DNA of 64,000 bases. It comes from Deferribacterales bacterium Deferri_01. Its GTDB lineage: Bacteria > Chrysiogenota > Deferribacteres > Deferribacterales > Geovibrionaceae. Below, one piece after another: positions 1 through 8,648 of the stretch. Within the stretch, counting starts at the first letter, position 1. Every line of letters begins with the position of its first letter. A model generated the notes under the pieces. The model was not told where the DNA came from, did not search any database, and saw only the letters and a list, made by a program, of their open reading frames with translations. The stretch spans positions 1-64,000 of the forward strand of contig LUZY01000003.1 of NCBI GenBank assembly GCA_001603805.1. Reading direction: 5' to 3'. The position numbers and the translations under genes are program-made.

Positions 1-2832
1 GCGACAGCAGCAGTTTATGGCTGCGGCGGCTCCGGCGACGGCGGAAAAACATACATGGAAGAAGACGAGGAAAACCGTCCCTCCGCACCTGCGATAACTG
101 AAACTGTAATAATGGGTTCAACCCCTCACAACTGCGGCGGACGCTGTGTGAGTAAATATTACGTTAAAGACGGCGTTGTAAAAAGAATTACCACTGATGA
201 AAAAGGCGACAAAGGCATCAGCAACGGTGACGATCCTGAATACCGTTCATGCGTACGCTGTCGTTCAAGAAAACAGTGGTTCTACCGTAATGACCGTCTC
301 CTTTACCCTTTGAAACAGACAGGAGAAAGAGGCGACATAAACGGATTCGTCAGAATCTCATGGGAACAGGCATTCACTGAAATAGCTCAGAAAATGCAGA
401 CCATCAAGGCTCAGCACGGTCCTGCTGCATTCCACTCAATCTACTCTTCAGGCGATTCTACCGGCTGGTCAAGAAACTCTCTGCACAGAATGCTTATGCT
501 TAACGGCGGCTATTCATACTACTACACCAACTACAGCTTCCCCTCGCTTGAGCATATGGCTAAGTTCATGGAAGGAGCAAACGAAGGTACTCCTTTGGGC
601 AACGGACGTCAGGATGCAAAATTTGCTGATAAACTTGTTCTTTGGAGCTTTAACCCCAACGAAACAGTTTTCGGAACAAACACAGGCTGGTATCTTCAGC
701 AGATTAAGGAACTCGGCAAGGAAGTTATCTCTGTCGATTCCAGATACTCCAAAGCAACTGCAACTTCTGCTGATAAATACATTAACCTTCTGCCCGGAAC
801 AGATGCAGCGCTTCTTTCCGGTATGATCTACCACCTGCTCACCGATCGTATTGCTGATCTTGACATTCCCTGGATCAATGCGCGTATGTACGGTCTTTTC
901 GACAACGGACAGAGCCTTCTCCGTTCCGATGTTGACGTTGCAAGATATGCTATACCCGACGGCGGATCACTCTCAGCATTTATCCTTGGTGATGAAAACG
1001 ACCTTGTAACAGCAGGACACAACAACGACACTTCTATCTACCCAGACACCATCGGTTATGAAGTAAACGATGATGATCCCCTTTACGGCAAAACAGTAAG
1101 CATCTGGGGACAGAGAGCTAAAACTCCCGAATGGGCGGAAAAAATATGCGGTGTTCCCGCTCAGACTATCCGTGACCTTGCTGATATGTACCTTGATAAC
1201 AAGGTTACAACATGGATCGGCGGCGGATACCAGAGACATACAGAAGGCGAGCAGGCTATATGGCTTAACCGTGTTCTTTCTGTAATGACTAAAAACATCG
1301 GCGCAAGAGGATGTTCTTCCGGAAGAAATGCTAACAACAAATCTGCTTCTCTTCCCAACGTACAGATGTCAAGAGGCGTTACAAACCCTGTTAATCAGGA
1401 ACCTGATATCTACAATGCTGCGAGAGTTACTTCTCCTCTTACATACGTACACGCTGTACAGAGAAAGAATCTTCCAGTGTTTGTAATTCCTGATGCAGTT
1501 GAAAACGCTGCTTATGCCGGACGCAAGTCTAAATGGAACGACGGTCAGGTAAACCACGTTACTGTTCCCTACAAAGCTGTATTTGCTACGGGCGGTAACA
1601 TTATGGTTAACCAGTCTGGCGATGTTAACTATAACATGGCTATCTGGAAAGACAGAAGCAAAGCAGAGCTTCTCGTAAACTGCGACCATTTCCTTACTCC
1701 CTCAGCTGCAATAGCTGACTACGTTCTTCCCGCTACAATGATAGGCGAGAAACCCGGTGCGGTTAATGCGTGGGGTACAGGCGAAGTTGCTATCAAGATC
1801 AATAAGCTTGTTGATGCTCCCGGCGAAGTTATCAGTGAATACGAAATCTTTGAAGGTATTTCAAGAGCTCTCGGATACGGTGAAGAATACCTTGACGGAT
1901 ATGCTTCAGGTCAGGAAGGCATGGAAGCCCGTCTCAGAGACGGATGGGAATCAGGCAACCTTACCGCTAAATACGGCATGAGCTATGACGAATGGTGCGA
2001 AAAAGGCGTTGCTTCTCTCCATACTACTTACACAGAAGATGATTACTTTATCAAACATAAAGCATTCATTGAAAACCCTGTGCTTGCCAACGCACTTCTT
2101 ACCCCCACAGGTAAAATCGAAGCGTACTGCATGAACCTTATAGAAGACTACGAAGCACGCTACCACGACAACGTTGATACTGTTACTTCCGATGCTGGCG
2201 GTCAGACAACTCTTTACAACGGCGGAACAATCTACTCTGCACAGCATGGTGATTCAACTGCAAGAAGATTTGTTTACCCCATCGGTATGTACATACCCAC
2301 AATTGAGGGAAGACACGCAATAGATGCAACTAACCCCAATGATGAGCTTGCACATGATGACCCTCTGGGAATAAGGACTACATACCCCTTTACCCTGCAC
2401 ACATGGCACCTTATGTACAGATCACACTCAACTCTGAACAACGTTGCTTATCTGAACGAACAGTACAAACAGGATATTGATGGTAATGCTGCTTTCCTTG
2501 ATCCTAACCGTGACTGGACAGACGGCGTATGGGACGACAACGTATATGAAACAGTTGTTATGAACCCCGCACATGCTGCTTCACTCGGTCTTGAATCAGG
2601 TGACAGAGTTCTCATCAGCAACGACAGAGGTAAAATATACGCTTCAGTTCGTTTCTCCCAGACTGTTCCTCCCCATACTATATGTATAGGACAGGGAGCA
2701 TGGAGCAAACAGAACTCTCAGGGAATCGATGTTGGCGGTAACGCTAACACAGTTGTAACAGCCAGACCTTCAAGAATTTGCAAAGGTATGACTTCTGCTA
2801 CAGATTCCAGAGTCAAAATAGTGAAGGCGTAG
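1..2832 (+). CDS. dmsA: DMSO reductase-family molybdopterin oxidoreductase, catalytic subunit (DmsA-like), 5' end outside window
   Basis: The frame is open from base 1 (first residues ATAAVYGCGG, the tail of what looks like a Tat-type or lipobox signal), so the true start is upstream. The 943 visible residues follow E. coli DmsA along their length: a cysteine-rich Fe-S segment at bases 121-270, a Tyr-Ser at about base 535 where DmsA has its Mo-ligating serine, GTDAAL, a GYQRH segment and KTPEWA, and a C-terminal dinucleotide-binding domain. By family it is a periplasmic bis-MGD enzyme reducing an S-oxide, N-oxide or oxyanion; the substrate cannot be read from sequence. The Fe-S motif is odd: the position four residues before the first Cys of NCGGRC is Thr (bases 121-123), where DmsA has Cys, while an extra Cys (CVRC) appears at bases 259-261. 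The ferredoxin subunit follows 13 bases later. Confidence 0.85.
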   Translation, partial: ATAAVYGCGGSGDGGKTYMEEDEENRPSAPAITETVIMGSTPHNCGGRCVSKYYVKDGVVKRITTDEKGDKGISNGDDPEYRSCVRCRSRKQWFYRNDRLLYPLKQTGERGDINGFVRISWEQAFTEIAQKMQTIKAQHGPAAFHSIYSSGDSTGWSRNSLHRMLMLNGGYSYYYTNYSFPSLEHMAKFMEGANEGTPLGNGRQDAKFADKLVLWSFNPNETVFGTNTGWYLQQIKELGKEVISVDSRYSKATATSADKYINLLPGTDAALLSGMIYHLLTDRIADLDIPWINARMYGLFDNGQSLLRSDVDVARYAIPDGGSLSAFILGDENDLVTAGHNNDTSIYPDTIGYEVNDDDPLYGKTVSIWGQRAKTPEWAEKICGVPAQTIRDLADMYLDNKVTTWIGGGYQRHTEGEQAIWLNRVLSVMTKNIGARGCSSGRNANNKSASLPNVQMSRGVTNPVNQEPDIYNAARVTSPLTYVHAVQRKNLPVFVIPDAVENAAYAGRKSKWNDGQVNHVTVPYKAVFATGGNIMVNQSGDVNYNMAIWKDRSKAELLVNCDHFLTPSAAIADYVLPATMIGEKPGAVNAWGTGEVAIKINKLVDAPGEVISEYEIFEGISRALGYGEEYLDGYASGQEGMEARLRDGWESGNLTAKYGMSYDEWCEKGVASLHTTYTEDDYFIKHKAFIENPVLANALLTPTGKIEAYCMNLIEDYEARYHDNVDTVTSDAGGQTTLYNGGTIYSAQHGDSTARRFVYPIGMYIPTIEGRHAIDATNPNDELAHDDPLGIRTTYPFTLHTWHLMYRSHSTLNNVAYLNEQYKQDIDGNAAFLDPNRDWTDGVWDDNVYETVVMNPAHAASLGLESGDRVLISNDRGKIYASVRFSQTVPPHTICIGQGAWSKQNSQGIDVGGNANTVVTARPSRICKGMTSATDSRVKIVKA

Positions 2833-2845
2833 GGAGGATTAAACC

Positions 2846-3463
2846 ATGGCTAAACAGATGGCATTTTACTTTGACCAGAATAGATGCATGGGCTGCCACG
2901 CTTGCGTTGTAGCCTGCAAGGACTGGAATGATGTTAAACCCGGTAAAGCAAGCTGGAGAAAACTCAGCGTGAATGAAACCGGAGCTTTCCCGAATGTAAA
3001 GGTTTTTAACCTTGTACTTTCCTGCAACCATTGCGCAAACCCTGCCTGTACGGCAGCTTGCCCCGTGGGTGCGATTTATAAGAGAAAAGAGGACGGCATA
3101 GTCATAGTAGACCGTGACAAATGCCAGAACATCCGTTCCTGCGCTGTAGCGTGCCCTTACGGCGCTCCTCAGTTCGGAGACGATGAGTCCGAACCTGTTA
3201 AAAAGGCAAGCTGGGCAGTAGCTCACCCTGTGCAGAAATGTACTTTCTGCTGGGACAGACTTGATGATGGTCTTGCGCCTTCATGTGTGGCTGCATGCCC
3301 CCAGAGAGCACTTGACTTCGGCACAGTGGAAGAGATCAGTGCAAAATACCCCACCGCAGTAAGAACAGCGGTAGGTATGCCTGATTCATCAAAAGACTCA
3401 AACGGTAATACTCTTACTTCAGGAGATACAGTACCCTCCATCTTCTTTAAACCGAAGAATTAG
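2846..3463 (+). CDS. dmsB: Four-cluster ferredoxin subunit of the molybdoenzyme (DmsB-like)
   Basis: A protein of 205 residues, the same length as E. coli DmsB, preceded by the ribosome site GGGAGG. It passes electrons from the quinol side to the catalytic subunit through four Fe-S clusters. The Cys blocks are CMGCHACVVAC (residues 15-25), CNHCANPACTAACP, CQNIRSCAVACP (93-104) and CTFCWDRLDDG followed by SCVAACP. In the third block the second ligand is Ile96 (bases 3131-3133) instead of Cys: the motif is CxxIxxC. In E. coli DmsB the matching residue is Cys102, and NarH-type subunits carry Trp there and hold a [3Fe-4S] cluster, so I infer a [3Fe-4S] centre here. No DmsC or NrfD-type membrane anchor follows; the operon ends at the terminator 22 bases downstream. 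Confidence 0.9.
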   Translation: MAKQMAFYFDQNRCMGCHACVVACKDWNDVKPGKASWRKLSVNETGAFPNVKVFNLVLSCNHCANPACTAACPVGAIYKRKEDGIVIVDRDKCQNIRSCAVACPYGAPQFGDDESEPVKKASWAVAHPVQKCTFCWDRLDDGLAPSCVAACPQRALDFGTVEEISAKYPTAVRTAVGMPDSSKDSNGNTLTSGDTVPSIFFKPKN

Positions 3464-3484
3464 GAGCCGTAACAACCAAGGATG

Positions 3485-3517
3485 CCGCCCCCTTACAGGG
3501 GCGGTATTTCTTTTTTT
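3485..3517 (+). terminator. Rho-independent terminator after dmsB-like gene
   Basis: A 7-bp perfect stem (CCGCCCC / GGGGCGG) with loop CTTACA is followed within six bases by a run of seven T. It separates the structural dmsAB pair from the accessory operon downstream. Confidence 0.9.
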
Positions 3518-3523
3518 AAGGTC

Positions 3524-3552
3524 TTGATAAATTAGGCACTAAGCTTTATTTT
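3524..3552 (+). promoter_or_regulatory. Sigma-70-type promoter of the radical SAM/TorD operon
   Basis: TTGATA at 3524-3529 and TATTTT at 3547-3552 are separated by 17 bases, directly after the terminator and about 36 bases before the radical SAM start codon. The match is 5/6 and 4/6, so this is a reasonable but unproven promoter. Confidence 0.5.
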
Positions 3553-3588: not shown

Positions 3589-4896
3589 ATGATTACAGAC
3601 ATAAATGATAAAACTCTGAATTTGATTAAAAATAAAACCTTCAGAGAAGACGCAGAAAGATATGTAATGCAGTATGCCGATTTCATGAAGTTTGCCGAAG
3701 ATTCGGGACTCAATGCAGTCGAGGGAGCCTCCCCAGATAGAATAGCCGTGGAGCGACTCTCTAAAACGGGTCGGATTAAGGACTATAACGCAAAAAGCCT
3801 TTCATACGGCTATCTCTCCCCCGCCTGCATTGATTGCCGAACCGGAGCAAACTCTAAAACCGTTTTCCATACGCTTACTTGCAACAGGGACTGCTACTTC
3901 TGCGCAAATATGAATCAGGAAGAATATGAATACTATACCAAAAATATAAATAATGCCGAAGAAGAACTGGATAAAACAATGGAAGGGAAGAAGGTTTCTT
4001 CTGTTGCTCTTACCGGCGGCGAACCTCTTCTTCTGCCTGAGAAGGCTCTTGCTTTTTTCAGGCATGTTTCCGAAAAATATCCGGAGGCTCATAAACGCCT
4101 TTACACCAACGGGGATCTGCTCACTGATGAGCTGGCTGAACAGCTTGCCGGGGCAGGATTGAATGAGATCCGCATAAGTGTAAAAATGGATAAGGACGGC
4201 TATCCTGCTGAAACTCTGGAGAAGCTGAAGATCGCAAAGAAATTCATTCCTGCGGTTATGGTTGAGATGCCTGTGATTCCGGGCACACTTGAGCATATGA
4301 AAGATCTGCTCATAAAAATGGAGGAGATAGGATGTGAGGGAATCAATATCCTTGAGTTTCTTTTTCCTTGGCTTGACCCTGAAGAGTATAAAAAATTAGG
4401 CTTCAGGATAAAAGAGCGCCCCTACCATGTTCTTTATTCCTATAACTATTCCGGCGGTCTTCCCATTGCCGGAAGCGAGGATGAATGCCTTAAACTGTTA
4501 GAGTTTGCTGTTGAAAAGAACCTGAAACTCGGTGTTCACTACTGTTCACTGGAAAACAAGCTCACATCGCAGATCTATTCCCAGAATGCCGGTGTGAAGC
4601 TGATGCCATTTGAAATAATGTCTGATAAAGACTATTTTATAAAAATCGCCCGTGTATACGGCGGAAACGCAGGCAAGGTTCAGAAATATTTAAGAAAAGC
4701 AGGAGTTCCTTTCCAGCGTATAGCAGGAACAGGGGCTCTGGAGTTCAACCCGAAATATATTTCAGAACTGAAAGGGGTGGACGAAGTTGCCCTCACATAC
4801 AATGTTGTAGAGAGCGACGGAACAAAATCCCACATGCGGGAAGTTAAAATAGATTTAGTAAATCCGGAATTATTTGATTTTGATAAGGATATATGA
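3589..4896 (+). CDS. Radical SAM protein in the molybdoenzyme accessory operon
   Basis: A 435-residue protein with the radical SAM cluster motif CNRDCYFC (Cys98, Cys102, Cys105) and the GGEP SAM-binding motif (ALTGGEPLLL, near residue 142). An extra CIDC pair (Cys80, Cys83) lies just before the main motif. The rest looks like the usual partial TIM barrel (YTNGDLL, ISVKMD, VIPGT). By family it cleaves SAM to a 5'-deoxyadenosyl radical; the substrate is unknown to me. It starts its own transcript after the dmsAB terminator and is followed by a TorD chaperone and a polyferredoxin, so I infer a role in maturing or modifying the molybdoenzyme or its cofactor. It is not a clear MoaA. The start ATG has AAGGAC seven bases upstream. 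Confidence 0.8.
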   Translation: MITDINDKTLNLIKNKTFREDAERYVMQYADFMKFAEDSGLNAVEGASPDRIAVERLSKTGRIKDYNAKSLSYGYLSPACIDCRTGANSKTVFHTLTCNRDCYFCANMNQEEYEYYTKNINNAEEELDKTMEGKKVSSVALTGGEPLLLPEKALAFFRHVSEKYPEAHKRLYTNGDLLTDELAEQLAGAGLNEIRISVKMDKDGYPAETLEKLKIAKKFIPAVMVEMPVIPGTLEHMKDLLIKMEEIGCEGINILEFLFPWLDPEEYKKLGFRIKERPYHVLYSYNYSGGLPIAGSEDECLKLLEFAVEKNLKLGVHYCSLENKLTSQIYSQNAGVKLMPFEIMSDKDYFIKIARVYGGNAGKVQKYLRKAGVPFQRIAGTGALEFNPKYISELKGVDEVALTYNVVESDGTKSHMREVKIDLVNPELFDFDKDI

Positions 4897-4905
4897 GGTG
4901 ACGTT

Positions 4906-5601
4906 ATGAACGTTAATGAGATATGTGAAACACACAAAGGAAGAGACGTAACATTCAATATTTTTTCAAGAGTCTTTATCGATGTGCCGGATGAAGCTTC
5001 CGATAAGCTTTTTGCCGATACCTGTGAATATCTTTTGTCTGTTGCGGAATTTTCTGAAAACGGAGACCTGAAAAAAGGCGCACAGATTCTGAATACTCTT
5101 CTGCCGGCGGATAAATCCGCTCTTGCAGGCTGGTTTGCCGAAAACAGACTGGAGAGAGCAAAGGATTACACTTTCCTTTTCGTTCTTGGTCAGGGGTCTG
5201 TATCCACTTTTGAGTCCGTTTACCGTTCTCCTGAAAGACTCATAAAGCAGGATCCATGGAGCGAAGTTAAGGCTGTTTACGCTGAAAACTGCTTCAAAAA
5301 AGCCGAAGGAAACAGACAGCTTGAGGATCATGTTTCTCTGGAACTGCAGTTTATGGGGCTAATGAGCAAGAAAATTGCTGAACTCTTCCAGAAGGAAGAT
5401 TTTGACGCTGCGGAAGCTAAACTCAATGTTCAGAAAAGCTTCTATGACAGCCATATCTTTAAATGGATTCCTGATTTTTGCGACAGAGTAATAGCAAAAT
5501 CAGAAAAGCTCCACTCTCAGTTTTATGTTGCATATGCTTATCTTCTTAAAGGATTCCTCACGGAAGACATGCTGTTTCTGGAAGACCTCCTCGGAGAATA
5601 A
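4906..5601 (+). CDS. TorD/DmsD-family molybdoenzyme assembly chaperone
   Basis: A 231-residue, all-helical, cytoplasmic protein with the family signature around residues 139-150 (LEDHVSLELQFM, compare the PDH.SLEL motif of TorD-like proteins). These chaperones bind the twin-arginine leader and the apo-form of a DMSO reductase-family catalytic subunit until the Mo cofactor is inserted. The nearby client is obviously the DmsA-like subunit at the left edge. GAGGTG precedes the ATG by four bases; the gene begins nine bases after the radical SAM stop and three bases before the next start, so it is translated in one operon. Confidence 0.85.
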   Translation: MNVNEICETHKGRDVTFNIFSRVFIDVPDEASDKLFADTCEYLLSVAEFSENGDLKKGAQILNTLLPADKSALAGWFAENRLERAKDYTFLFVLGQGSVSTFESVYRSPERLIKQDPWSEVKAVYAENCFKKAEGNRQLEDHVSLELQFMGLMSKKIAELFQKEDFDAAEAKLNVQKSFYDSHIFKWIPDFCDRVIAKSEKLHSQFYVAYAYLLKGFLTEDMLFLEDLLGE

Positions 5602-5604
5602 TAT

Positions 5605-6630
5605 ATGGGTGTTGTGGAAGGTGTATTTGAAAAACTTTCCGAATACTTTGTAATAAACAGTGCTTTGTGTGTGCGGGTTCGTCATAAAAACGCAGCCTGC
5701 ACCGCATGTACTGATGCATGCCCTGTTGAAGCGGTGCGCATCACCCGTGCAGGCGGCAAAGTGCTTGTGGACTGGTCATTATGCACTGACTGCGGAAAAT
5801 GCGTAAGCGCCTGCATGAACGGAGTGTTTACTCTCCGCAGGGCTGATGAGGCACGTCTTAACGCTTCCATTCCTGAGCAGATCAATGCTGCAGGCAGTGT
5901 AAAATACTCCTGCGCCCGTTCCAAATCCTCTGAAAACACAGCAAAAGTTTCCGCACTTGCCTACATCAACCGCAGACAGATAATAAAGGCTGCCTCAAAG
6001 GGAGCAGAAAGGCAGGAGTTCATTCACGGAGACTGCGATACCTGTCCTGCGGGCGGATGTCTTGACATGCTTTCGGAAGAGATAAAAGCTGCCTCTAAAA
6101 TACTGGAGCTTTGCGGAAAAGAACCCTCTTTTCTCATTCGCAGACCGGAAGAGGCTCCCATCTCCAAAAAAAAGAGCAGGCTTGCAGAGCGCCTTGGCGG
6201 AAAACAGGATGTTAAGCTTAGTCGGCGGGAGTTCTTCGGCTTTATCCGGAAAGGTGCTGAAAAATCCATGGGGAAAACCTTACAGTACCTTGGTGAAAAT
6301 GACGCTAACAGACAGAAAACAGTTCTTGAAGTAAAAGAAACCGCCGCTCCTCACAGAGAATACCTGAATTCTATAGAAACACTGGGCGGAGATATTCTCA
6401 TACGCAATATGCAGAGGGAAGGACTGCTGAAACGTGCTGAAATTGATTCTGAAAAATGTGTGAAATGCGGCATCTGCGCCCGCATGTGTCCGTTCCATAT
6501 ATTTGAGCCTGTCGTAGAAAAAATCAAAGGGCGTGATGTTACTCAGGTTATAAATGTGAAATCCGTTGGCTGTACAGGGTGCAATCTCTGCACTATATCG
6601 TGCCCGTACGGAGCAGTAAGCATCCGCTGA
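5605..6630 (+). CDS. Polyferredoxin with multiple [4Fe-4S] motifs
   Basis: A 341-residue protein without signal peptide or membrane segment. An N-terminal pair of clusters is marked by CTACTDACP and CTDCGKCVSAC (residues about 31-70), and a C-terminal pair by CVKCGICARMCP and CTGCNLCTISCP (about 285-340). A central DCDTCPAGGC adds three more cysteines, and the middle third is basic. The layout recalls NapF-like cytoplasmic ferredoxins, which act in molybdoenzyme maturation, but I cannot assign it further. It is the third gene of the radical SAM/TorD operon, three bases after torD, with ribosome site CGGAGAAT. It could feed electrons to the radical SAM cluster; this is inference. Confidence 0.8.
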   Translation: MGVVEGVFEKLSEYFVINSALCVRVRHKNAACTACTDACPVEAVRITRAGGKVLVDWSLCTDCGKCVSACMNGVFTLRRADEARLNASIPEQINAAGSVKYSCARSKSSENTAKVSALAYINRRQIIKAASKGAERQEFIHGDCDTCPAGGCLDMLSEEIKAASKILELCGKEPSFLIRRPEEAPISKKKSRLAERLGGKQDVKLSRREFFGFIRKGAEKSMGKTLQYLGENDANRQKTVLEVKETAAPHREYLNSIETLGGDILIRNMQREGLLKRAEIDSEKCVKCGICARMCPFHIFEPVVEKIKGRDVTQVINVKSVGCTGCNLCTISCPYGAVSIR

Positions 6631-6703: not shown

Positions 6704-8014
6704 ATGAGAAAAACCGCCGTTTTTAAATCTGTTCTGGCTGATGATGATTCACTGGACAGAGCCTGCAAAAGTATACCGGAAGAGGCGTGCAGACATTCAA
6801 CACGCAATTATAAAGCAAACCTATACAACGGTGCGGCATCAAAACTTGCGGAGCAGACCGCAGGACCTAATCTTGTTATCCCGTGGCTGCTTCAGGCAAT
6901 AGGGGCTCCGGTGTGGATTCTGGGGTTTGCAATGCCCTTAAAACAGACTTTTTCACTTCTTCCGCAGATGATAACAGCAGGATATATAAGAACTCTCGCT
7001 GTCCGTAAAACCGTATGGACAATTTCCGGCTTTATTCAGGCTCTATGCCTCATTCTGATGATTCCCTCAGCAGTTTACCTTAACCCTTTTGAGGCAGGGG
7101 TAGCAGTGCTTTTTCTGCTTATTATTTACAGCACGGCAAGCGGTACTGCATCTGTGGCCTTTCAGGATGTTCTGGGAAAAACCATCGATAAAGGACAGAG
7201 AGGAAAGCTTCTTTCAGCAAGGGCATTCGCCGGCGGGGTGCTGACTATTGCCGCAGGGCTTATAATAAGCCGTGTCAAAGGCGGTTCCATTACAACTCTG
7301 TATTTGCTTCTTGTTGCGGGTGCGGTGTTATGGATTATCTCATCTTTGTTTTTTCAGAGTATAAAAGAGGAGCCGGGTGCGGTAAAAGGCGGCAGAAATG
7401 CCATTAAAGAAGCGGCTGCCGGAATTTATCTGTTTAAAAGATATAAAGGTTTCAGACGTTATCTTTATGCCAGACTTTCTCTTAATGTTATAGAAATAGC
7501 AGTTCCCTTCTACGCTTTTTACGCATCGGAACTTCTGGGTACATCAAAGGCAGGTTTGGGGCTTTTTATGATGGCGATAGGAGTGTCACAGGTTATAAGC
7601 AGTCCGTTCTGGGGCAGGGCGGCGGATGAAACAAGCAGAAAGGTACTGATTCAGAGTGCCTTGATTTCTGTTGCTGCATCAGTAGTTGCTGTGGTCTGTT
7701 ATTTCCTTACGGATCAGCTTGCTGTTTATGCAGGGCTTCTTGCGGCGTTTGTGCTTATGGGGCTAGCGGAAGCAGGCGTGAGGCTTGGGCGCAAAACATA
7801 CCTGGTAGATGCAACTCCGGCGGATAATAAGTCTACATTCACAGCATTCAGCAACAGCTTAGTCGGCGTTCTTTCTTTGGCGGCAGGGGTTCTAGGGCTT
7901 ATTGCGGAGAAAACAGGCGCAGCGGGGATAATAGCCGTGATCGGCGTTTTATCGCTCATAGCGGTATTTATTTCAGCCCATATGCCCGAAGCTGACGACA
8001 TGCTCAAAGAATAA
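6704..8014 (+). CDS. Major facilitator superfamily transporter
   Basis: A 436-residue integral membrane protein with about twelve hydrophobic segments, preceded by the strong ribosome site GGAGGAAG. The first roughly 45 residues are hydrophilic and form a cytoplasmic lead-in that is long for the family. A charged central loop (KEEPGAVKGGRN, near residue 230) separates the two six-helix halves. The loop WGRAADETSRK near residue 305 matches the MFS loop motif at the start of the second half. The substrate is not recognisable. It stands alone, with its own promoter-like sequence, and is probably monocistronic because a strong promoter for flavodoxin follows. Confidence 0.8.
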   Translation: MRKTAVFKSVLADDDSLDRACKSIPEEACRHSTRNYKANLYNGAASKLAEQTAGPNLVIPWLLQAIGAPVWILGFAMPLKQTFSLLPQMITAGYIRTLAVRKTVWTISGFIQALCLILMIPSAVYLNPFEAGVAVLFLLIIYSTASGTASVAFQDVLGKTIDKGQRGKLLSARAFAGGVLTIAAGLIISRVKGGSITTLYLLLVAGAVLWIISSLFFQSIKEEPGAVKGGRNAIKEAAAGIYLFKRYKGFRRYLYARLSLNVIEIAVPFYAFYASELLGTSKAGLGLFMMAIGVSQVISSPFWGRAADETSRKVLIQSALISVAASVVAVVCYFLTDQLAVYAGLLAAFVLMGLAEAGVRLGRKTYLVDATPADNKSTFTAFSNSLVGVLSLAAGVLGLIAEKTGAAGIIAVIGVLSLIAVFISAHMPEADDMLKE

Positions 8015-8072: not shown

Positions 8073-8132
8073 ATTTGAACAAATATAAATTAAACTAAAA
8101 TTTATAGTTATCTATAAGTCATGGAGGAGCCA

Positions 8133-8648
8133 ATGAGCAAAGTAGGTATTTTTTACGGCAGCAGCACCGGGGTAACCAAGAGCGCAGCGGAAGCAGTTGC
8201 TAAAGAACTTAAAAAATGCAGCATAGACGCCGATGTTCACAGCGCAGGCGATACAGATATTTCAACAATAACATCATACGGCGGGATTATTCTCGGTACA
8301 TCCACATGGGGCATGGGAGACTTGCAGGACGATTGGGAAGCTCTTCAGAAACCTCTTGCATCTTCCGACCTTAAAGGCAAAACAGTGGCTATTTTCGGAT
8401 CAGGGGATCAGGATGGCTACCCTGATACATTCGTTGACGGAATAGGCATTCTTTATGATGCAGTATCCTCCGCCGGTGCCAGTGTTGTGGGTTCTGTTGC
8501 CACTGACGGCTACACATATGACGCTTCTCTTGCTGAGAGAGACGGCGAATTTGTCGGACTTCCTATAGACGAGGATAATCAGGCGGATATGACTGATGAC
8601 CGTATTAAAGCATGGGTTGCTTCAATCTGCGAATCATTCGCAGGCTGA
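8133..8648 (+). CDS. Flavodoxin, long-chain type
   Basis: A 171-residue FMN protein of the long-chain flavodoxin family. The phosphate-binding loop YGSSTGVTKSAA occupies residues 9-20, and the WGMGDLQDDW and FGSGDQDGYPDTF segments are the two FMN ring-binding loops. It carries low-potential electrons between reductases and acceptors in place of ferredoxin, typically when iron is scarce. I chose ATG 8133 over the upstream in-frame ATG 8121, because the latter overlaps the ribosome site GGAGGAG that serves 8133. The DUF2023 gene follows immediately and is probably translationally coupled. Confidence 0.92.
   Translation: MSKVGIFYGSSTGVTKSAAEAVAKELKKCSIDADVHSAGDTDISTITSYGGIILGTSTWGMGDLQDDWEALQKPLASSDLKGKTVAIFGSGDQDGYPDTFVDGIGILYDAVSSAGASVVGSVATDGYTYDASLAERDGEFVGLPIDEDNQADMTDDRIKAWVASICESFAG

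Follow-up and report, generated by a model that had tools for sequence, protein, structure and literature searches.

A radical SAM protein encoded with a TorD chaperone and a polyferredoxin as a probable maturation module for one class of DmsA-like molybdenum enzymes

The window analysed here is a stretch of 64,000 nucleotides from Deferribacterales bacterium Deferri_01 (contig LUZY01000003.1; G000:C3:1-64000 of a 2.85 Mb genome in 14 contigs). Behind dmsA- and dmsB-like genes, it encodes a radical S-adenosylmethionine (SAM) protein, a TorD-family chaperone and a polyferredoxin, and we consider it probable (about 0.7, judged from sequence comparison) that these three form a maturation module for one class of DmsA-like molybdenum (Mo) enzymes exported by the twin-arginine translocation (Tat) pathway. 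Reading the three genes as one module is well supported because gene order, a shared history of the helper genes and co-occurrence with the client agree. Maturation with a chaperone is of a known kind, and the radical SAM component is what is new. The initial annotation of the window had placed the three genes where we find them, all on the plus strand, with 10 bases between the radical SAM gene and torD and 4 between torD and the polyferredoxin gene. Each open reading frame (ORF) exceeds the Pfam cut-offs: the first matches PF04055 with 69.5 bits (cut-off 29.5), the second PF02613 with 86.4 bits (cut-off 22.2), which places it in the TorD/NarJ family by score, and the third several Fer4 models. 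A radical SAM gene beside the chaperone had also been called foreign to the dms system of E. coli, and indeed dmsABC has no adjoining radical SAM or torD-type gene.

A constant helper block with exchanged clients

Genomic neighbourhoods were compared in 50 genomes of the phylum, which contain 37 radical SAM genes of this kind; 29 (in 25 genomes) belong to the subfamily of the window and 8 to a distant clade. Within the subfamily, torD adjoins the gene in 18 of the 29 loci, the polyferredoxin gene in 22, and dmsB lies directly upstream in 15. At least one of torD and polyferredoxin stands beside it on the same strand in 28 loci, the only locus with neither being a broken gene in G029, and neither adjoins any of the 8 genes of the distant clade. 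The block also occurs in parts: radical SAM and TorD alone (L041, L049, L050, L054, L055 and L069, with torD first in L055), radical SAM and polyferredoxin alone (10 loci), and TorD and polyferredoxin alone (L123). The pair in L041 belongs to a second operon of the same genome, dmsA-dmsB-rSAM-torD without polyferredoxin (G000:C6:25195-30892; L041:9195-14892), whose radical SAM protein is 40% identical to that of the window.

Pairwise protein identities were then correlated over 11 operons, 9 of them with polyferredoxin, after four cut or broken loci of the 15 with dmsB upstream had been left out. The helpers followed each other closely (radical SAM-TorD 0.96, radical SAM-polyferredoxin 0.98, TorD-polyferredoxin 0.97), the correlation with DmsA was 0.47, 0.50 and 0.36 for radical SAM, TorD and polyferredoxin, respectively, and DmsB was intermediate (0.82-0.89 with the helpers). 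A first run with 10 operons had given 0.98 for radical SAM-TorD and 0.45 for radical SAM-DmsA. Between the window and L043, which is from the same genus, radical SAM, TorD and polyferredoxin are 83, 81 and 84% identical while DmsA is 47% identical, and the DmsA of L043 is 82% identical to that of L047, from another genus. The same pattern was found elsewhere, with identities of 79% for radical SAM and 49% for DmsA between L047 and L048, and of 51% and 70% between L046 and L048. Because the helpers remain similar where DmsA does not, and the DmsA of L043 is nearer to that of L047, DmsA genes ahead of the helper block have been exchanged; the block is fixed and the client changes.

Presence of the radical SAM gene also follows one class of DmsA, defined as matches of at least 700 bits to a profile of 13 DmsAs linked to radical SAM genes, a line drawn after the scores had been seen. 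Split homologues (G041:C25 and G047:C173) and G038:C24 (539 bits) fall below the line, and their genomes are already counted in the class. The profile replaced single-sequence matches, which had given 15 strong genomes, because insertions split the longer homologues; the recount raised the number of genomes with the class and added one counter-example, G036. Both genes are present in 19 of the 50 genomes, the radical SAM gene only in 6, the DmsA only in 1 and neither in 24 (Fisher's exact test, p = 1.9e-7 without correction for kinship, which inflates the significance). Among genomes at least 90% complete, the corresponding numbers are 17, 3, 1 and 18. Genera g2, g4 and g8 each contain species with the pair next to species lacking it, and no species in them has one gene without the other. 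Of lesser weight among the discordant genomes are G029 (broken radical SAM gene), G045 and G048 (less than 65% complete), G049 (contig broken just beyond dmsB) and G031 (88% complete); the other two of the seven, G039 and G036, are genuine exceptions.

Several observations weigh against a module dedicated to this class. G039, assembled in one contig, has a radical SAM-polyferredoxin pair but lacks a class DmsA, the highest score there being about 300 bits, and has elsewhere a set of DmsA-like, DmsB, TorD, porin and cytochrome genes; G036 has a class DmsA and no radical SAM gene. Some class DmsA copies, in a G018 array described below and at contig ends in G000:C6 and C13, have no radical SAM gene beside them, so that the protein would have to act in trans. 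The shared history of the helpers in part mirrors the species tree, and the TorDs linked to radical SAM genes are not one clade (p-AU 0.0008). In 11 of the 29 subfamily loci neither torD nor dmsAB adjoins; 10 of these come from one family (f7), with polyferredoxin following radical SAM, and 9 of the 10 have two genes of fixed size upstream, which in the two loci read (L052 and L057) resemble glyS and a gene for a histidine kinase. Relatives with the same six cysteines show no molybdoenzyme neighbours detected by the profiles used, and outside the phylum, in G086 and G231, a near relative has no torD adjoining. Since six-cysteine relatives occur without such neighbours, the core chemistry need not be specific to molybdenum. 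The role in molybdoenzyme maturation that the initial annotation had proposed is partly upheld: neighbourhood and co-occurrence support it for the subfamily, but the pairing with torD and DmsA-like genes extends neither to these 11 loci nor to the wider radical SAM family.

The 11 loci, most of them behind the glyS-like and histidine-kinase-like genes, and the unrelated neighbours of relatives outside the subfamily would suit another explanation, in which the radical SAM protein has a small-molecule product or another protein as its substrate and lies next to torD by hitch-hiking in an anaerobic-respiration island. We regard this as unlikely: torD or polyferredoxin accompanies the gene on the same strand in all loci but one, the adjacency to torD recurs in several contexts and once in reversed order, and in three genera the gene is present or absent together with the DmsA class.

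Two degraded loci were also seen. In G029, whose genome has no class DmsA, the subfamily radical SAM gene (L066:8572-9896) contains an internal TAG. In L068:7671-8549 (G018:C1:692596-693546), a block of radical SAM, torD and polyferredoxin genes is preceded by a remnant of a class DmsA, only its final third, which contains a TAG; here the helpers have perhaps outlived their client.

The radical SAM protein and its candidate target

Membership of the radical SAM superfamily is indicated by the CxxxCxxC motif, by GGEP, by the Pfam score and by radical SAM fold matches with Z up to 17.3. In an alignment of 34 full-length members from the phylum (3 of the 37 being broken or truncated and left out), the invariant positions include S77, C80, C83, G86, C98, C102, C105, GGEP, E193, R195, E226, N253, C319, K324, Q328 and E342. 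The six cysteines, namely the SAM-binding motif (C98/C102/C105), the upstream CxxC (C80/C83) and the late C319, are kept in all 9 further relatives from outside the phylum, giving 43 relatives in total; two other ORFs, picked wrongly by length, were not radical SAM proteins and were excluded from the 9. The extra CxxC pair had been recognized in the initial annotation, which did not list C319. Because three invariant cysteines remain beyond the SAM-binding motif, C80, C83 and C319 could hold a second, auxiliary [4Fe-4S] cluster with a free site. Such a cluster is known in MoaA and four other enzymes (PMC5352715).

An AlphaFold2 model built with 28 of the 34 sequences had a mean predicted local distance difference test score (pLDDT) of 90.3. 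Its best solved fold neighbours are NifB chains (Z 17.3, 16.8 and 16.7; for 6y1x, Z 17.3 and a root-mean-square deviation of 3.1 over 207 residues). Viperin, the PFL-activating enzyme, GDGT-MAS and Mmp10 lie within about 2 Z units of the NifB match, and for this reason the ranking tells little about function. The C-terminal domain, residues 338-435, folded alone with a pLDDT of 94.1; a search with it gave nothing above Z 4.6 (UreE chains, to which a relation is neither claimed nor excluded) and no Foldseek match with E < 0.001, and the matches listed include no peptide-recognition or SPASM-type domain. Among the 25 of 39 NCBIfam matches listed, no named radical SAM family exceeded its curated cut-off, the scores being 48.9 of 267.9 bits for HxsC (the best), 39.7 of 284.05 for MoaA and 29.8 of 400 for TIGR04311. 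By sequence, the protein is outside every named family tested.

Two identities were considered and rejected. SPASM/twitch peptide maturases have a cysteine-rich C-terminal domain for auxiliary clusters, and a single invariant cysteine follows the core here. NifB, the radical SAM enzyme of the nitrogenase cofactor, is the nearest solved fold, and the N-terminal and late cysteines fall close to the ligands of its K cluster if positions are counted without gaps at the ends of the aligned range. However, the CxxC is N-terminal and the single cysteine (C319) C-terminal, the reverse of NifB, whose K cluster is held by an N-terminal Cys, a His and a Cys on strands, and two C-terminal Cys (passages available from PMC9692996). 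Moreover, no invariant His is present, H31 and C115 of NifB have no invariant counterpart, and the present protein has an extra C-terminal domain.

A single-sequence scan of genome contigs picked up a single locus, L040 (Membranihabitans, with 38% identity across 76 residues); the radical SAM profile did not match it, and it was dropped as chance. Searched plasmids contained no match to the radical SAM protein or the polyferredoxin, and their DmsA matches were only 26-30% identical enzymes from Enterobacterales and Azospirillum.

As to the target, our first, tentative choice, held at somewhat below even odds, is an amino-acid side chain close to the Mo site in the catalytic subunit. Ranked next is an alteration of the cofactor, molybdenum bis-pyranopterin guanine dinucleotide (Mo-bisPGD), in its pterin or guanine part, or of its ligand, while TorD holds it. 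The exchange of clients in front of a constant radical SAM-TorD pair would be explained easily by a target common to all clients, and MoaA, whose second cluster binds its substrate, is among the Protein Data Bank (PDB) profile matches, so that the free site of the predicted second cluster could bind a nucleotide in the same way. In addition, passages available from PMC10609526 report that Mo-bisPGD came along in the purification of a TorD homologue and that TorD binds this cofactor. Against this, MoaA and the other PDB sequence matches span the shared core only, and the genome, with 20 Molydop_binding places and 10 TorDs, carries two radical SAM genes of the subfamily, which makes a change to the general cofactor pool unlikely; we hold alteration of the cofactor to be rather improbable, though less so than hitch-hiking. 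Taken over both targets, that the radical SAM protein installs a hitherto unknown modification on the TorD-held catalytic subunit or its Mo-bisPGD across a class of the DMSO (dimethyl sulfoxide) reductase family, with a fixed block and interchangeable clients, falls only slightly short of an even chance.

A radical SAM gene in the locus of a redox enzyme is also found for quinohemoprotein amine dehydrogenase, where we take its product to be the protein named QhpD; the client, the helper genes and the details of the radical SAM protein differ, and no SPASM-type cysteine-rich end was seen in ours. That product has been proposed to form the built-in cofactor of the enzyme (passages available from PMC2147049).

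Polyferredoxin, TorD and the proposed course of maturation

The polyferredoxin consists of two dicluster parts flanking an internal SRRxFF, both arginines of which are invariant in 23 of 23 sequences. Judged from sequence, this motif inside a ferredoxin might mimic a Tat signal for binding by TorD. The protein resembles NapF in its several [4Fe-4S] motifs, in the SRR motif (SRRGIL at the start of E. coli NapF) and in the pattern C-x7-9-CxxCxxxC, and the second half of E. coli NapF has about the same cysteine spacing as the first half of the polyferredoxin, as if the halves had been swapped. It differs in being twice as long and in having the arginine motif between the halves, and the likeness is in pattern only, the NapF model TIGR00402 scoring 33.5 of 102.2 bits, under its cut-off.

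Feeding of electrons to the radical SAM protein, a role the initial annotation had suggested, is plausible. Because the polyferredoxin is NapF-like and NapF takes part in the maturation of NapA, supply of iron-sulfur (Fe-S) clusters is about as likely as the role of reductant. According to passages of PMC10609526, NapF helps NapA acquire its Fe-S cluster, acting in the cytoplasm, and TorD binds the apo-enzyme and its signal peptide ahead of Tat export. The radical SAM protein or polyferredoxin might instead help to build or mend the Fe-S clusters of DmsA/DmsB without leaving a permanent chemical change, and the NapF-like features and the NifB fold matches can be cited for this. Fold likeness is no proof of function, however, the His and second Cys ligands of the NifB K cluster lack invariant counterparts, and in other systems the general Fe-S pathway is considered to supply DmsA; this is the least probable explanation, quite unlikely in our judgement.

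In the course that we favour, the helpers would act in the cytoplasm, possibly in a physical complex. TorD, following the established role of its family, would keep the apo catalytic subunit open before export, and the polyferredoxin would donate electrons of low potential and might also deliver Fe-S clusters, in the way that NapF helps NapA. The radical SAM protein would cleave SAM at the CxxxCxxC cluster, with the second cluster on C80, C83 and C319, and make a one-time change on the TorD-bound client, after which Mo-bisPGD would be locked in and the modified enzyme exported. This full sequence of events is proposed tentatively, at rather less than even odds.

Enzymes of the DMSO reductase family are among the best studied of anaerobic respiration. 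Accounts of how they mature involve chaperones, FdhD-type sulfuration and NapF-type helpers. If a dedicated radical SAM step exists, some of these enzymes bear an unrecognised modification, and the step could explain failed production of them in other hosts. The exchange of clients offers a direct route to the target, as a feature common to all clients. No paper joining radical SAM, TorD and molybdopterin was found in the literature searched: in the available passages of PMC2147049 radical SAM and TorD belong to separate systems, in PMC6650914 and PMC7759655 radical SAM appears in the reference list only, and the main text of the field review PMC10609526 has no word beginning with 'radical'.

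The client enzyme and features of the locus

Features of the dms locus are listed in Table 1. The hairpin with its T run is terminator-like and lies between dmsAB and the radical SAM gene, where the initial annotation had placed a terminator. Hairpins with T-rich tails occupy 7 of the 10 dmsB-rSAM gaps examined, the window counted; their stems differ, and two of the seven are the same sequence in two copies. One way to read the hairpin is as a boundary before a separate helper transcript, as the initial annotation had it, and another is read-through, and it would hold the helper level below that of the enzyme. In the promoter scan the number of sites (5) was below the chance expectation (6.8), which does not bear out a separate transcript; one site (3524-3552) falls in this gap.

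Table 1. Features of the dms locus and helper genes in the window
Feature	Position	Strand	Remarks
dmsA-like gene	1..2832	+	catalytic Mo-bisPGD subunit; 5' end cut off at contig end; Ser at presumed Mo-ligand position
dmsB-like gene	2846..3463	+	ferredoxin-type electron transfer subunit
intrinsic-terminator-like hairpin and T run	3480..3509	+	between dmsB and radical SAM gene
radical SAM protein gene	3589..4896	+	435 aa; C98xxxC102xxC105, GGEP, C80xxC83, C319; C-terminal domain residues 338-435
torD, TorD-family chaperone	4906..5601	+	231 aa
polyferredoxin gene	5605..6630	+	341 aa; N- and C-terminal dicluster ferredoxin parts; extra C103/C144/C147; internal SRRxFFG; NapF-like

The subunits are DmsA/DmsB-like and under the curated NCBIfam cut-offs (TIGR02166, 414.6 of 777.7 bits; TIGR02951, 167.3 of 214.1 bits). 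In the alignment, the DmsA class has, like E. coli DmsA, a serine in what we take to be the Mo-ligand position. In relatives, DmsA carries a Tat signal that closes with a lipobox-like YGCGG; only the last part of this signal is kept in the window. Of 25 class-specific columns, D152 and Y316 (numbering of the 943-aa open ORF) are kept in 24 of 24 class members and 5 of 5 of a related group; such residues may only mark the clade and are not claimed as modification targets.

In relatives, dmsAB often follows genes for a putative porin (exported, about 480 aa, matching no Pfam or NCBIfam model) and a cytochrome with 5-6 CxxCH motifs. The putative porin is present in 22 of 25 genomes with the radical SAM gene and 5 of 25 others, and tracks it less well than class DmsA does. 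G018 carries an array (L122:341-20000 and L123:1-5415; G018:C1:193001-223000) in which a unit of four genes (putative porin, 5-CxxCH cytochrome, DmsA-like, DmsB-like) occurs four times in tandem, with torD and polyferredoxin behind the last unit; its DmsAs are 52-67% identical to that of the window, and a separate rSAM-torD pair elsewhere in the genome likewise stands behind porin and cytochrome. G037 (27 matches) and other f7 genomes have large expansions of DmsA-like proteins, each about 1050-1200 aa long, and in several of these genomes there are several porin copies.

In relatives, dmsAB lies with putative porin and cytochrome genes much as in the Shewanella dmsEFABGH operon, so the DmsA-like enzyme may work at the outer membrane; in the window, the corresponding region would lie beyond the contig end. 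The DmsE cytochrome of Shewanella has ten haems, whereas the cytochrome in these relatives has 5-6 CxxCH, the putative porin is without family match, and radical SAM and polyferredoxin are added. The Shewanella operon, which specifies an extracellular DMSO/iodate reductase, brings together DmsA, DmsB, DmsG (a chaperone of the TorD type), a c-type cytochrome and an outer-membrane protein, and also includes DmsH, a further cytoplasmic protein of unknown function (passages available from PMC11302344). For the first five the loci compared here have counterparts, putative in the case of the outer-membrane protein.

Four contig ends of the genome lie inside dmsA or porin copies (position 1 of the window; G000:C6:107650-110427; G000:C13:1-2766; G000:C3:322072-322311), so the assembly breaks in repeated dms units, and the operon of the window probably extends further upstream than the contig start. 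Downstream of the helper block, a major facilitator superfamily gene (6704-8014) is followed by a gene for a long-chain flavodoxin (8121-8648), a possible alternative electron donor for the radical SAM protein.

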